A stretch of DNA of 43,243 nucleotides from Lachnospiraceae bacterium. GTDB lineage: Bacteria; Bacillota; Clostridia; Lachnospirales; Lachnospiraceae. A program made the translations under genes and the position numbers. The notes under the pieces are model-generated. The model made no database searches. It was not told the DNA's origin and was given only the letters and a program-made list of their open reading frames with translations. Below, one piece after another: positions 8,475-15,104 of this stretch; position 1 is the first letter of the stretch, and each line of letters opens with the position of its first letter. The DNA lies in assembly GCA_021205385.1 (NCBI GenBank), contig JAJPXQ010000026.1:1-43243 (forward strand). Reading direction: 5' to 3'.

Positions 8475-9488
8475 TCAAGTCGTCACGCAGCGATAGCAGC
8501 TCTCCCGCTGCACAATTCTGCAGGGAAATTCGATCCGTACCGGCTCTTTATGCCCCCGCGAGGTACGGTCGAGCAGAAGATTCACCGCCATATGTGCCAT
8601 CTCATCGCGTGGAATGTGGATCGTGGTGAGATAAGGTTTTGTGTTCTGCGCCTCTTCAATGTCATCGATCGAAATGACGGAAATTGCCTCGCGCAGCTTT
8701 TTCTTCTGCTGCGCAAGAATTTCCAGCACCCGCACTGCCGTCGCATCATTCGCGCAGAACACTGCTGAGAAATCAGCCTTTCCCGAAACCTTCTGTTCAA
8801 GGAGCTCCCGAAATGCGGGTTCCGCCTGCTCCCGCGTCTGATCCGTCGGCCGGATCAGACTGTAATCCATCGAGATATGATTGCGAAACAGCGTATTACA
8901 ATAGCCGACGTAACGACTCTCGTAGGAACAGTCGCCGATATAGGCGATCCGCCGGTGGCCGAGCGAAAGCAGATGGTTCATCGCGAGTTCTGCGGCCTTC
9001 TCTCCATCACAGACAACCTCGTCAACATGGAAATCCATCGGGTTGCGCCAGATGCCGACAATATTACGACTGCACGCGCTGATATGTGCAAGGAGCCGTC
9101 TGGAACAGCGCCCCAGAATAATAAATCCGTCGGATTCCATCGGATTCTCCGCCAGCGACTCTTCCGCATAGAGTGTCTGCCGGATCACCATGCTCTGCTT
9201 CATCAGCTCAACCTCGAGGCTGCGAAACAGCTCATAAAAAAACGGATCCGCCTCCAGGGAGGCGACACGCGCCATGACGATCGTAACGGATCGCGTCTCA
9301 GCCGGCGCTTCCGACGCCTTTTTCAGTTTCCGGGCTGTCTCGTTCGGCACATAGCCGATCGAACGCGCCGCTTCCCAGATCCGATCCTGCGTCTCGCGCG
9401 ACGCGCAGGCCGGCGAGGCATTGTTCAGGACTCTTGATACCGTGGAGGCGGATACCCCCGCCATCTCCGCAATTTTTTTCAGTGACAT
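8475..9488 (-). CDS. LacI-family transcriptional regulator
   Basis: Repressor-type regulator of 337 residues. The N-terminal helix-turn-helix and hinge (residues 1-60) read L-K-K-I-A-E-M-A-G-V-S then T-V-S-R-V-L-N-N, the standard recognition helix for operators centred on AACGTT. The rest is a periplasmic-binding-like effector domain. It is divergent from the sulfate-type ABC operon, and the gap carries a perfect 16-bp palindrome with an AAACGTTT core (9600-9615) plus a partial copy near its own start (9515-9524). The likely target is therefore the transporter and itself. A LacI protein controlling a sulfate-type importer is unusual, because effectors of this family are mostly sugars or nucleosides. 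The effector is unknown. Confidence 0.9.
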   Translation of the reverse strand: MSLKKIAEMAGVSASTVSRVLNNASPACASRETQDRIWEAARSIGYVPNETARKLKKASEAPAETRSVTIVMARVASLEADPFFYELFRSLEVELMKQSMVIRQTLYAEESLAENPMESDGFIILGRCSRRLLAHISACSRNIVGIWRNPMDFHVDEVVCDGEKAAELAMNHLLSLGHRRIAYIGDCSYESRYVGYCNTLFRNHISMDYSLIRPTDQTREQAEPAFRELLEQKVSGKADFSAVFCANDATAVRVLEILAQQKKKLREAISVISIDDIEEAQNTKPYLTTIHIPRDEMAHMAVNLLLDRTSRGHKEPVRIEFPCRIVQRESCYRCVTT

Positions 9489-11504: not shown

Positions 11505-12350
11505 ATGAAAAATCAGAAGAAATCCATTGTTCCCGCTCTGCTGATCGCGATCAGCGTCGTCTTCTTCGTCGTCATGCTGGTGCTGCCGCTCGTCATCGTG
11601 CTCTACCGCTCGCTGAAGGACGGCCTTACGCTCTATGTCGAAGCAATCACCGCCCCCAATACTCTGTCCGCTCTGCGCGTGACGCTGATCGCTGCCTCGA
11701 TCGCGGTCCTCGTCAACACGTTTTTCGGCCTCTGTGCGGCCTGGCTGATCACAAAATTTGAATTTCGCGGGCGGCAGGTGCTCTCGACCCTGATCGACAT
11801 TCCCTTCTCGATCTCCCCGGTTATCGCGGGTCTGGCCTTCATCATGACCTTCGGACGGATGGGCTGGGCGACGCCCTTCATTGACTGGATCAACAGCACC
11901 TTCGGCACGGACATTGCGCTTGTCTTCTCAGTACCCGGCGTCGTGCTGGCGACAATTTTTGTCACCTTTCCCTTTATATCGCGCGAACTGATCCCGGTCA
12001 TGCAGGCGCAGGGAAACGCCGAGGAGGAGGCCGCCGCGATGATGGGAGCGAAGGGATTCACAATCTTCCGGAAAGTCACCTTCCCTCATATTAAGTGGAC
12101 GCTGCTCTACGGAATCATTCTCTGCGCCGCGCGGGCCATCGGGGAATTCGGCGCGGTCTACGCCGTTTCCAAGACACGCGGACAGACCTTCACGCTGACG
12201 CTCGAGGTCGATGCGCTCTACATGGCGGGAGGCGCGGACTCGATCACACAGGCCTTCGCCGTGTCGTCGCTGCTCGTGATTATCGCTGTCGCTATCTTAC
12301 TGATAAAACAGGTCGTAGAATACCGTGCGAAACGGACGGAGGAAGCATAA
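11505..12350 (+). CDS. cysW: Sulfate/thiosulfate ABC transporter permease CysW
   Basis: Second membrane subunit (281 aa), homologous to CysT, with about six helices and the coupling loop E-E-E-A-A-A-M-M-G-A-K-G followed by A-R-A-I-G-E-F-G-A-V. A strong ribosome binding site (AAAGGAGGAGG) precedes the start. It follows cysT by 15 bases, and its stop overlaps the cysA start by one base (TAATG), so translation is coupled. The heterodimer CysT-CysW is the usual pore of sulfate importers. Confidence 0.93.
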   Translation: MKNQKKSIVPALLIAISVVFFVVMLVLPLVIVLYRSLKDGLTLYVEAITAPNTLSALRVTLIAASIAVLVNTFFGLCAAWLITKFEFRGRQVLSTLIDIPFSISPVIAGLAFIMTFGRMGWATPFIDWINSTFGTDIALVFSVPGVVLATIFVTFPFISRELIPVMQAQGNAEEEAAAMMGAKGFTIFRKVTFPHIKWTLLYGIILCAARAIGEFGAVYAVSKTRGQTFTLTLEVDALYMAGGADSITQAFAVSSLLVIIAVAILLIKQVVEYRAKRTEEA

Positions 12351-13417
12351 TGTACGTACAGTTAAACCATATTACAAAAAAATTCGAGGATTACGAAGCG
12401 GCGAAGGACGTGAGCCTCGGCGTCGAGGAGGGCCGCATGGCGGCGCTCTTAGGGCCGAGCGGCAGCGGCAAGACAACGTTGCTGCGCATCATCGCCGGGC
12501 TTGAACAGCAGGATTCCGGCGACGTGCTGATAGATGGAAAAGTCGTCAACGATGTCCCCGCCGGGGAGCGTGGCATCGGCTTTGTCTTCCAGAACTACGC
12601 GCTGTTCCGCTACATGACAGTCTATGAAAATATTGCCTTCGGGCTGCGCGTACAGAAGCGTAAGAAAGAGGAGATCGACGCGCGCGTCATGGAGCTCGTC
12701 CACCTGGTCGGGCTCGACGGCCTCGAGAAGCGCTATCCGAACCAGCTCTCCGGCGGACAACGTCAGAGGGTGGCTTTCGCGCGCGCTCTCGCACCGGAGC
12801 CCAGCCTGCTGCTGCTTGACGAACCCTTCGCGGCCATCGACGCGAAAGTGCGTAAAGAGCTGCGTCTCTGGCTCAGAAACATGATTTCCCAGGTCGGCAT
12901 CACGAGCATCTTCGTGACCCATGACCAGGAGGAGGCCGTCGAGGTCGCCGACGAGATCCTCGTCATCAACGAGGGAAGACTCGAGCAGGCCGGCGCTCCG
13001 ATCGACATCTACAAGAACCCGAAGACCTCCTTCGTCGCACAGTTCATCGGCAGTTCCGCGGTACTCTCCGACTTCAGAGGGCTGAAGGGCTTTGAGGATG
13101 TCCCGGCCGGCCGACAGGCCGTCGTCCGCCCCGAGTTCGTCGAGGCCTTCAAGAGCGACAATGAGAAATTTAAGAGCCTGATCGCGGATACGGAATCCGG
13201 TGTGATTACCAATATCGCCTTCCGTGGCAGCTACCTCGAGCTGACGCTCGACGTGAACGGCATACAACTCACGACCAACCGCTCGCTCGAACGCCGCCCG
13301 GTGCACGTCGGCGAGCCGATGTGCGTTCTCATCTATCGTGCCTATATTCTGGACGGGGAAAATACGCGTATCTATGAGAACAGGCGGCTGGAAGGTGTGG
13401 ACGTCGAATCACTGTGA
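12350..13417 (+). CDS. cysA: Sulfate/thiosulfate ABC transporter ATP-binding protein CysA
   Basis: ATPase of the importer, 355 residues. Walker A is G-P-S-G-S-G-K-T (35-42). The Q-loop F-Q-N-Y-A-L-F is near 83, the signature L-S-G-G-Q-R-Q-R-V near 134, Walker B L-L-L-L-D-E-P-F-A near 154, and the switch histidine in V-T-H-D-Q-E-E-A near 190. A C-terminal TOBE-like domain of about 100 residues follows, as in CysA. The start overlaps the last base of the cysW stop codon, with GGAGGAAGC upstream. No convincing terminator was found after the stop, so some transcription may run into the next ABC gene. Confidence 0.93.
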   Translation: MYVQLNHITKKFEDYEAAKDVSLGVEEGRMAALLGPSGSGKTTLLRIIAGLEQQDSGDVLIDGKVVNDVPAGERGIGFVFQNYALFRYMTVYENIAFGLRVQKRKKEEIDARVMELVHLVGLDGLEKRYPNQLSGGQRQRVAFARALAPEPSLLLLDEPFAAIDAKVRKELRLWLRNMISQVGITSIFVTHDQEEAVEVADEILVINEGRLEQAGAPIDIYKNPKTSFVAQFIGSSAVLSDFRGLKGFEDVPAGRQAVVRPEFVEAFKSDNEKFKSLIADTESGVITNIAFRGSYLELTLDVNGIQLTTNRSLERRPVHVGEPMCVLIYRAYILDGENTRIYENRRLEGVDVESL

Positions 13418-13461: not shown

Positions 13462-13490
13462 TTGAAAATTTTTATCACGGGCTTTATAAT
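13462..13490 (+). promoter_or_regulatory. Sigma-A promoter of the ABC exporter operon
   Basis: -35 TTGAAA (13462-13467), 17-base spacer, consensus -10 TATAAT (13485-13490). Start point expected near 13497. The spacer contains one arm of an inverted repeat whose partner covers the ribosome binding site. Confidence 0.88.
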
Positions 13491-13520
13491 AGTCCCTATA
13501 CATCAGAAGGAGCCCGTGAT
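13474..13520 (+). repeat. Perfect 10-bp inverted repeat linking promoter spacer and ribosome binding site
   Basis: ATCACGGGCT (13474-13483) lies between the -35 and -10 boxes. Its exact complement AGCCCGTGAT (13511-13520) begins inside the AGAAGGAG ribosome binding site, with 27 bases between the arms. Only RNA arriving from cysA would contain both arms. It could also be a two-site DNA operator. Confidence 0.8.
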
Positions 13521-13525
13521 ACCAT

Positions 13526-14359
13526 ATGATCGAACTTCAGAACCTGACAAAAAAATTTGAGAATTTCACCGCGGTCGATTCTTTAAATCTCCGGATCGAG
13601 AGCGGTGAATTTTTTGGCCTGCTCGGACCGAACGGCGCCGGAAAGACGACGACGATCGGCATGCTGTCCACCCTGCTCCTGCCGAGCAGCGGGCAGATTC
13701 TCATCGACGGCGAGCGCCTCACCCGGCAGCGCCAGGATCTGAAGCGAAAGGTCAGCGTCATCACACAGGAATACTCCATGCGTCAGGACATGGACATGGA
13801 TGAGATCATGGAATATCAGGGGCGGCTCTACTATATGCCGGTTCGCCAGATCCGCGCGAAGACCGAGGAACTTTTCGAGTTTGCCAATCTCACGAGCCAC
13901 CGGCGAAAGACGATCCGCCAGCTCTCCGGCGGCATGAAACGCAAGCTGATGGTCTGCCGCGCGCTGCTGACCGACCCGCAGATTCTGCTGCTGGACGAGC
14001 CGACCGCCGGTATGGACGCAATTTCACGCCGGCAGATGTGGAACCTGCTGCGCCAGCTGAACGAACAGGGACTGACCATCCTTCTGACCACGCACTACAT
14101 CGAAGAGGCGCAGTCGCTGTGCGGCCGGGTAGCACTGATGAACGGGGGAAAACTGACCGAAGTCAATACGCCCGCAGGATTTATCGAAGATCTTGGAGCC
14201 TGGGCGGTCGACCAGCAGCTCCCGGACCGACTCTGCAGCCGCTATTTTCATGATCGGAAGGAAGCCATCGCCTGTCTTTCCGAACTCGACGGACAATGCG
14301 CGATGCGCGATACAACCCTCGAAGACGTGTTTATCGAGCGGGTGGGCAGAAGTTTATAA
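13526..14359 (+). CDS. ABC transporter ATP-binding protein (DrrA/NodI type)
   Basis: ATPase of an ABC-2 exporter, 277 residues. Walker A is G-P-N-G-A-G-K-T (34-41), the signature L-S-G-G-M-K-R-K-L is near 133, Walker B is L-L-L-D-E-P-T-A-G near 155, and the switch histidine is in T-T-H-Y-I-E-E-A. A C-terminal extension of about 60 residues resembles those of daunorubicin-resistance and nodulation exporters. AGAAGGAG lies 12 bases before the ATG, partly inside an inverted-repeat arm. It forms an operon with the permease gene 13 bases downstream. The exported substrate is unknown; drugs, lipids and glycans are all exported by relatives. Confidence 0.88.
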   Translation: MIELQNLTKKFENFTAVDSLNLRIESGEFFGLLGPNGAGKTTTIGMLSTLLLPSSGQILIDGERLTRQRQDLKRKVSVITQEYSMRQDMDMDEIMEYQGRLYYMPVRQIRAKTEELFEFANLTSHRRKTIRQLSGGMKRKLMVCRALLTDPQILLLDEPTAGMDAISRRQMWNLLRQLNEQGLTILLTTHYIEEAQSLCGRVALMNGGKLTEVNTPAGFIEDLGAWAVDQQLPDRLCSRYFHDRKEAIACLSELDGQCAMRDTTLEDVFIERVGRSL

Positions 14360-14372
14360 AAGGGGAATTCTA

Positions 14373-15104
14373 ATGGGAATCGTGACAATTTTATGGGAAA
14401 AATGGAGAGAATTCCTGCGTGACTTCTCCAAAATCACACTGGCGGCGATGGTCTCGCCTCTCATGTACCTGATCGTATTCGGCTGGGGCATCCGTACGAC
14501 AATGAACGGCCAGCCTTATCTCTATTATCTGATTCCGGGCGTCGTATCCTTGAGCACAATGAACGGCAGCTTCAATGCGATTGCACAGAATCTGAACGTA
14601 CAGCGGCTCTATGAGAAGGCCTTCGATCAGGTCATCATCTCGCCGACTCCGCTGTGGCAGTTCGTCGCGGGACAGATCATCGCCGGAGCCCTGCGCGGCC
14701 TCTACGCGGGCGGCATCATCCTGCTGCTCGTCTGGCCGATCAAAACCGGTCTCATCTTCAACTGGCTCTCAATCCTGATCCTGTTCCTGAACGGCGCGGT
14801 CTTCGCCTCGATCGGCATTGTCGTGTCCTTCATTGCGAAGAATCACGCCGACGTGCCGCGCTTCTCAAATTATATCATCATGCCGATGTCCTATCTGTGT
14901 AATACTTTCTTTTCCACAGACACGATCCCGCACGGCGCACGCGAATTCATCGCGGCGCTGCCCCTCTCCCAGACCAGCCGGATCGTGCGCAGCATCGCCT
15001 ACGGCGAGACGCCGAATCTGTACGGGATTTTTGTCCTGCTGGCTTACCTCGTGGTCTTCACCGCGCTGGGACTGTACTTCGTATATAAAAAGAAAAACCT
15101 GTAG
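14373..15104 (+). CDS. ABC-2 type transporter permease (DrrB/NodJ type)
   Basis: Membrane subunit of 243 residues with six predicted hydrophobic helices. It begins with a cytoplasmic W-R-E-F-L-R-D-F-S-K segment, typical of ABC-2 permeases, and carries the family pattern near the fifth helix (P-M-S-Y-L-C-N-T-F-F-S). The start at 14373 follows AAAAGGGGAATTC. It pairs with the ATPase immediately upstream. No terminator is obvious in the AT-rich gap that follows. Confidence 0.87.
   Translation: MGIVTILWEKWREFLRDFSKITLAAMVSPLMYLIVFGWGIRTTMNGQPYLYYLIPGVVSLSTMNGSFNAIAQNLNVQRLYEKAFDQVIISPTPLWQFVAGQIIAGALRGLYAGGIILLLVWPIKTGLIFNWLSILILFLNGAVFASIGIVVSFIAKNHADVPRFSNYIIMPMSYLCNTFFSTDTIPHGAREFIAALPLSQTSRIVRSIAYGETPNLYGIFVLLAYLVVFTALGLYFVYKKKNL

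Follow-up and report, generated by a model that had tools for sequence, protein, structure and literature searches.

Organization of the exporter promoter and leader

Does an inverted repeat that spans a promoter in front of an ABC exporter gene silence that gene in RNA arriving from the sulfate importer operon upstream? The question is raised by the window (the whole stretch of DNA analysed, 43,243 nucleotides of contig JAJPXQ010000026.1 from a Lachnospiraceae bacterium, genome G000), in which the spacer of a near-consensus promoter contains an exact complement of sequence at the ribosome binding site of the exporter. The features of this region are listed below; gene calls and starts derive from a home-made heuristic that allowed a Shine-Dalgarno (SD) spacing of up to 12, later 14.

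12350–13417, + strand: cysA-like ATPase gene, the last gene of the sulfate importer operon (TIGR00968 over cut-off on the ORF 12095–13417; start by heuristic)
13462–13490, + strand: sigma-70-type promoter-like site TTGAAA, 17-base spacer, TATAAT (11 of 12 consensus matches; present in five species of the genus)
13473–13483, + strand: 5′ arm TATCACGGGCT, within the promoter spacer (differs among species)
13505–13512, + strand: SD site AGAAGGAG (identical across the five species)
13511–13521, + strand: 3′ arm AGCCCGTGATA, filling the SD-ATG spacer (final two bases differ among species)
13526–14359, + strand: ABC exporter ATPase gene, DrrA-like but below the model cut-off (PF00005; TIGR01188, 246 bits against a cut-off of 312)
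14373–15104, + strand: ABC-2 type permease gene (PF01061 on the longer ORF 14193–15104; start by heuristic)

The repeat has a 10-base core in which ATCACGGGCT (13474–13483) is exactly complementary to AGCCCGTGAT (13511–13520), and one further base beyond those noted in the preliminary description brings the perfect arms to 11 bp (13473–13483 and 13511–13521) around a 27-base loop. As RNA it extends to 13 pairs, two of them G-U pairs on the loop side. The −35-like TTGAAA (13462–13467) and −10-like TATAAT (13485–13490) lie on either side of the 5′ arm, and the 3′ arm shares the last two bases of the SD, which ends 13 bases before the exporter ATG (13526), a long spacing. The 19 intergenic stretches of at least 30 bases in the window (2446 bases) contain five overlapping perfect 11-mer stems with loops of 3–60 bases, in two of the stretches, against a chance level of 0.04 on average and 2 at most in 200 shuffles. 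The second of these stretches, 2079–2185, precedes spoIIIAA and is presumably the other case in the window to which the preliminary description referred. No Rfam element reaches its gathering score anywhere in the window.

The sulfate importer identity of the upstream operon is given by NCBIfam, with CysT and binding-protein models over cut-off upstream of cysA, and a LacI-family regulator gene (window 8475–9488, − strand) is divergent from the operon. As described previously, cysA and the exporter are co-directional and no good terminator separates them, none being listed by the terminator scan on the + strand between 13418 and 13525. The exporter stem itself does not resemble an intrinsic terminator, as it has a 27-base loop and no T-run, and it is absent from the terminator-like sites of that scan.

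Elsewhere the exporter has different neighbours. A cobI-like (precorrin-2 methyltransferase) gene lies directly before it in 51 of 80 Lachnospiraceae and related loci (L058–L137; from the upstream ORF ends, by reading), often overlapping the exporter ATG, and is over the cobI_cbiL model cut-off in G003, G004, G001, and G009; the exporter may belong with cobalamin genes. The window's genome has a full-length cobI elsewhere (C120). We considered whether the exporter promoter and leader are the remnant of a decayed cobI-like gene, with the repeat then accidental, and rejected this, as the likeness is at chance level once the SD is excluded (z 0.8; reached by 38 of 200 shuffles, and equally good in 100 of 404 control genes). 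At one locus in another species (L077; exporter start 1782) a different hairpin, CTCACATGGG/CCCATGTCA, is located just before the SD of the exporter.

Predicted folding and conservation of the exporter repeat

The arrangement suggests how the exporter could be insulated from sulfate-operon read-through. RNA entering from cysA, if it crosses into this region, would carry both arms, which would fold over the SD-ATG spacer and the last bases of the SD and could lower translation of the exporter, whereas RNA from the exporter's own promoter would start past the first arm and leave the SD open; selection might then maintain the hairpin. We regard a read-through-silencing hairpin of modest strength as having a little under an even chance of being correct.

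Computed opening energies are in keeping with such a role in the window species: making the stretch from the SD to codon 5 accessible takes 16.5 kcal/mol in read-through RNA versus 5.3 in promoter RNA, and 3 of the 120 shuffled upstreams and 2 of the 120 taken from other genes give a cost as high. These energies were computed after a first, cruder measure of accessibility, the mean unpaired probability of AAGGAG, had given near-equal values in the same species (0.35 for the long RNA versus 0.41 for the short). The 146-base leader as a whole is not unusually stable relative to its own shuffles (z −0.73, with 40 of 200 shuffles at least as stable).

Exporter orthologues with 77–100% identity are present in ten genomes beyond the window's among the 61 searched, and among 17 genomes of the genus a DNA search detected the promoter in five species, those of G000, G013, G010, G016, and G011; in G015 the DNA match begins only at the exporter coding start. 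The closest relative, G013, is 2.2% apart from G000 over 600 bases of the ATPase gene (distances to G011, about 56%, were left out, being spoilt by an indel or unread bases). With the long RNA, the opening energy is 14.6 kcal/mol in G013 (reached by 8 of 120 shuffled and 4 of 120 other upstreams), 7.8 in G010 (52 and 41), 6.2 in G016 (112 and 95), and 9.6 in G011 (41 and 23). The exporter hairpin thus exceeds most controls only in the window species and G013, and G010, G016, and G011 have no special stem.

The leader is almost invariant across the five species, and the 5′ arm ranks with the less conserved segments of the promoter, with a C-to-T substitution in G013, G-to-T in G016, and T-to-C in G010 and G011. 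Pairing is retained in 89.1% of cells across 11 pairs and five sequences, and none of the 11 pairs is altered on both sides, in a set of five close species offering few changes. The genes upstream also vary. As in the window, cysA is directly upstream of the exporter in G013 and G016, whereas divergent ATPase-like genes precede the promoter in G010 and G011 (L032:6001–7581 and L033:7993–9573): in G010 the gene, as two ORFs, lies between cysA and the exporter, and in G011 it is a single ORF of 526 aa with weak AAA matches immediately before the exporter, with cysA not seen in the fetched piece. The insulation proposed in the preliminary description may operate at the exporter, but the stem stands out in only two of five species, is weak in G016 despite cysA immediately upstream, and shows no compensated pair.

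The same data bear on the alternative, also raised in the preliminary description, that the arms are DNA half-sites for a regulator straddling the −10 element. An exact inverted repeat does flank the −10, and all five species share the inner nine bases of the 3′ half-site, although that half overlaps the SD and leader, whose own constraint may account for its constancy, and the 5′ half-site drifts. The paired motif, TCACGGGC N10-30 GCCCGTGA, is found at one place in the genome and does not recur at other promoters, and there is no regulator among the scanned neighbours, the nearest being the LacI-type gene before the sulfate operon. A two-site operator is accordingly improbable.

At the exporter the analysis establishes two things: the geometry of the repeat and, for the window species and G013, a computed gap in opening energy between long and short RNA.

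A survey of stems covering SD sites

The preliminary description took the two cases in the window as signs of a general strategy in the lineage that a genome-wide scan should reveal. We scanned 851,205 bases (27%) of the window's genome and 400,000 bases each of G075, G057, and G015, counting perfect stems in which at least 2 bases of the SD fall within the 3′ arm. Genes were grouped as co-directional (lying 60 bases or more behind a same-direction gene), divergent, or packed (gap under 40), with gaps of 40–59 bases falling into no group in the stem scan, and expectations were obtained from dinucleotide shuffles and from swaps with the upstreams of other genes.

Among the 190 co-directional genes of G000 there are 10 stems of at least 7 bp (3.30 expected when shuffled, 7.20 when swapped), 8 of at least 8 bp (1.35 and 2.25), 5 of at least 9 bp (0.40 and 0.50), 4 of at least 10 bp (0.05 and 0.25), and 3 of at least 11 bp (0 and 0.15). 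Stems of at least 10 bp number 3 in the 93 co-directional genes of G075 (0.15 and 0.40 expected) and 1 in the 123 of G057 (0 and 0.20), and none of at least 9 bp occurs in the 139 of G015, which is of the same genus. The 71 divergent genes of G000 have 5 stems of at least 7 bp (1.70 and 2.10 expected) and none of at least 9 bp; at this latter length divergent genes elsewhere give 1 of 52 in G075, 0 of 31 in G057, and 0 of 37 in G015, and packed genes 0 of 267 in G000, 0 of 106 in G075, 0 of 91 in G015, and 1 of 86 in G057. In G075, perfect stems of 15 bp and 14 bp lie over the SDs of an acyltransferase gene (L224:6320) and a subtilase gene (L234:16859), respectively.

Pairing was also assessed by an own-partner test, in which each gene's upstream zone is compared by permutation with its own and other genes' start zones, groups above 130 genes being sampled to 130. 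The own-partner excess of co-directional genes is matched by 0 of 2000 permutations both in G000 (130 of the 190 genes) and in G075 (93 genes), and is absent in G057 (332/2000) and G015 (387/2000); the divergent and packed groups give no signal. When stems of at least 9 bp are removed the values become 239/2000 in G000 and 11/2000 in G075. Splitting lists of at most 140 genes by T-rich, terminator-like sequence before the start gives 0/2000 for 16 T-rich genes and 83/2000 for 140 others in G000, and 72/2000 for 8 T-rich genes and 8/2000 for 85 others in G075. The loss of signal in G000 without the long stems, together with its presence in 16 T-rich genes, shows that the class of SD-covering hairpins in this genome is small and rests on a few strong cases. 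The expectation of a general strategy thus holds in part: long stems are in excess in G000 and G075, only behind co-directional genes, but as few strong hairpins, with none in G015 and no significant signal in G057.

The five co-directional stems of at least 9 bp in G000 precede spoIIIAA (window, − strand, start 2078), the exporter, yabP (L144), a gene for a DUF1540 protein (L044), and a gene for a sigma region-4 protein (L142), with the yabP and DUF1540 stems alone followed by a T-run. Shorter stems are found before an ABC permease gene (L049) and the gene for a Gate-domain protein (L145), which we take to be spmA. Judged from sequence, the exporter belongs to this small class, in which the SD is predicted to pair with sequence 5′ of the likely transcription start, and it looks like a weak or recent member rather than a conserved one.

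These counts also bear on whether the exporter repeat is a coincidence, a nearly freely drifting promoter spacer having happened to match the SD region in two close species with no selection involved. The stem is notable in only two of five species, none of their pairs is compensated, the leader is of ordinary stability, and a swap control of 0.15 stems of at least 11 bp per 190 genes means that one such stem per whole genome is not rare. Set against this, the 190 co-directional genes of G000 carry three such stems, while no stem reaches even 9 bp in its 71 divergent or 267 packed genes, and the exporter stem is placed exactly across the promoter. We give coincidence a substantial probability, clearly short of even.

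The spoIIIAA and yabP hairpins

The second case in the window has the following features.

1170–2078, − strand: spoIIIAA gene (PF19568, 3.3e-110)
2083–2093, − strand: 3′ arm AAGGGGACAGG, covering the spoIIIAA SD
2099–2106, − strand: CATATATT, in the hairpin loop (from sequence)
2108–2118, − strand: 5′ arm CCTGTCCCCTT

The loop sequence CATATATT, presumably a sigma-E-like −10, is in the loop at spoIIIAA and at yabP alike. The spoIIIAA hairpin (2083–2118) had the largest difference in opening energy between long and short RNAs of those computed, 29.6 versus 6.7 kcal/mol, as calculated without shuffled controls. Across genera (22 of 30 loci plus the window, eight having been dropped by eye for an unclear start or promoter) own-partner pairing at spoIIIAA is matched by 239 of 5000 permutations with narrow zones and 2 of 5000 with wide zones, and within the genus (L339 dropped, at a contig edge) by 874 of 5000. 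The sequence CCTGTCC before the −10 is conserved in 11 of the 12 rows shown for the genus, and so the spoIIIAA pairing may in part be conserved promoter sequence.

Support is stronger at yabP. Over 23 family loci, chosen from 30 by the ending of the upstream gene and including some surely miscalled starts (L289, L307), the pairing energy of upstream and start zones is −15.34 kcal/mol with the own partner versus −11.54 with those of others, a difference matched by 0 of 5000 permutations. A class-wide set mixing yabP and a paralogue (29 of 30 loci) gives −10.85 versus −8.51 (0/5000), with 4/5000 for the seven loci having a yabP-like upstream tail and 22/5000 for the remaining 22. For 10 distinct rows from the genus, 92% of cells are paired and one pair is altered on both sides; the covariation score is reached by 35 of 500 shuffles and the count of both-side pairs by 458 of 500, and the own-partner test is weak (161/5000) because the sequences are alike. 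The median opening energy at 20 of the 23 loci, using a loose −10 pattern and no shuffled controls, is 12.8 for the long RNA versus 3.8 for the short. One of the stems in G075 is likewise at yabP (L230), with different letters. By these sequence comparisons yabP is the best-supported member of the class, with predicted pairing that is genome-specific over the 23 family loci.

At least four consecutive Ts precede the yabP ATG in 13 of 13 genus rows, and the hairpin here may terminate transcription as well as hide the SD. Extended to the whole class, this would mean that the hairpins simply terminate the upstream gene, their 3′ arm also serving as an SD and SD hiding being a by-product. The yabP T-runs in the genus are in keeping with it, as is the fact that the clearest G000 signal lies in the 16 T-rich genes. 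However, the exporter and spoIIIAA stems lack a T-run, one is present by eye at only about 7 of the 23 family yabP loci, and the G075 genes without T-rich sequence keep their signal; we consider this account of the class most unlikely. Some class members, yabP in the genus among them, do resemble intrinsic terminators in having a stem that ends in a T-run, unlike the exporter.

Relationship to known systems and implications

In phage T4 gene e and in the leaders of the IS10 and IS50 transposase genes, transcripts arriving from outside fold over the ribosome site and those from the inner promoter do not. These are lytic or mobile genes, whereas the exporter sits beside a metabolic neighbour.

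A closer parallel is sigG (spoIIIG) of Bacillus subtilis, where, according to PMC5942855, a hairpin was proposed to block translation of read-through RNA from the upstream operon (Masuda 1988 and Sun 1991, as cited there) and cannot form in RNA from sigG's own promoter. The exporter shares this layout, in that outside RNA would hold both arms and inner-promoter RNA only one: with the start placed from the −10, the 5′ arm is upstream of the start and the 3′ arm reaches the SD. The two differ in that the sigG hairpin has more than 20 pairs and its promoter is a forespore one, whereas the exporter has 11–13 predicted pairs and a sigma-70-type promoter. The suggestion in the preliminary description that the insulation principle might be undescribed is thus superseded. 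A description of the class of SD-hiding hairpins was not found in the partial literature searched, and as most subscription papers lie outside it this absence says little.

The broader class, clearest at yabP, is more interesting than the exporter case, which alone is of little consequence. We propose tentatively, and at somewhat less than even confidence, that Clostridia carry a compact recurrent insulator, a hairpin whose loop contains or adjoins the promoter and whose 3′ arm holds the SD, and which in some cases also acts as a terminator. It would stop or silence RNA from upstream and be bypassed by the inner promoter, whose RNA would lack the first arm, and it may be conserved at yabP, serve other sporulation genes as well, and have been adopted by ordinary sigma-70 genes such as the exporter. 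If the class is real, RNA abundance alone would overstate the expression of such genes, and gene design would gain a small insulator that bypasses itself. In that case an element of ~40–50 bases, promoter, insulator, and ribosome site in one, would protect genes that have to be kept silent next to active upstream genes, for instance sporulation genes downstream of growth genes.
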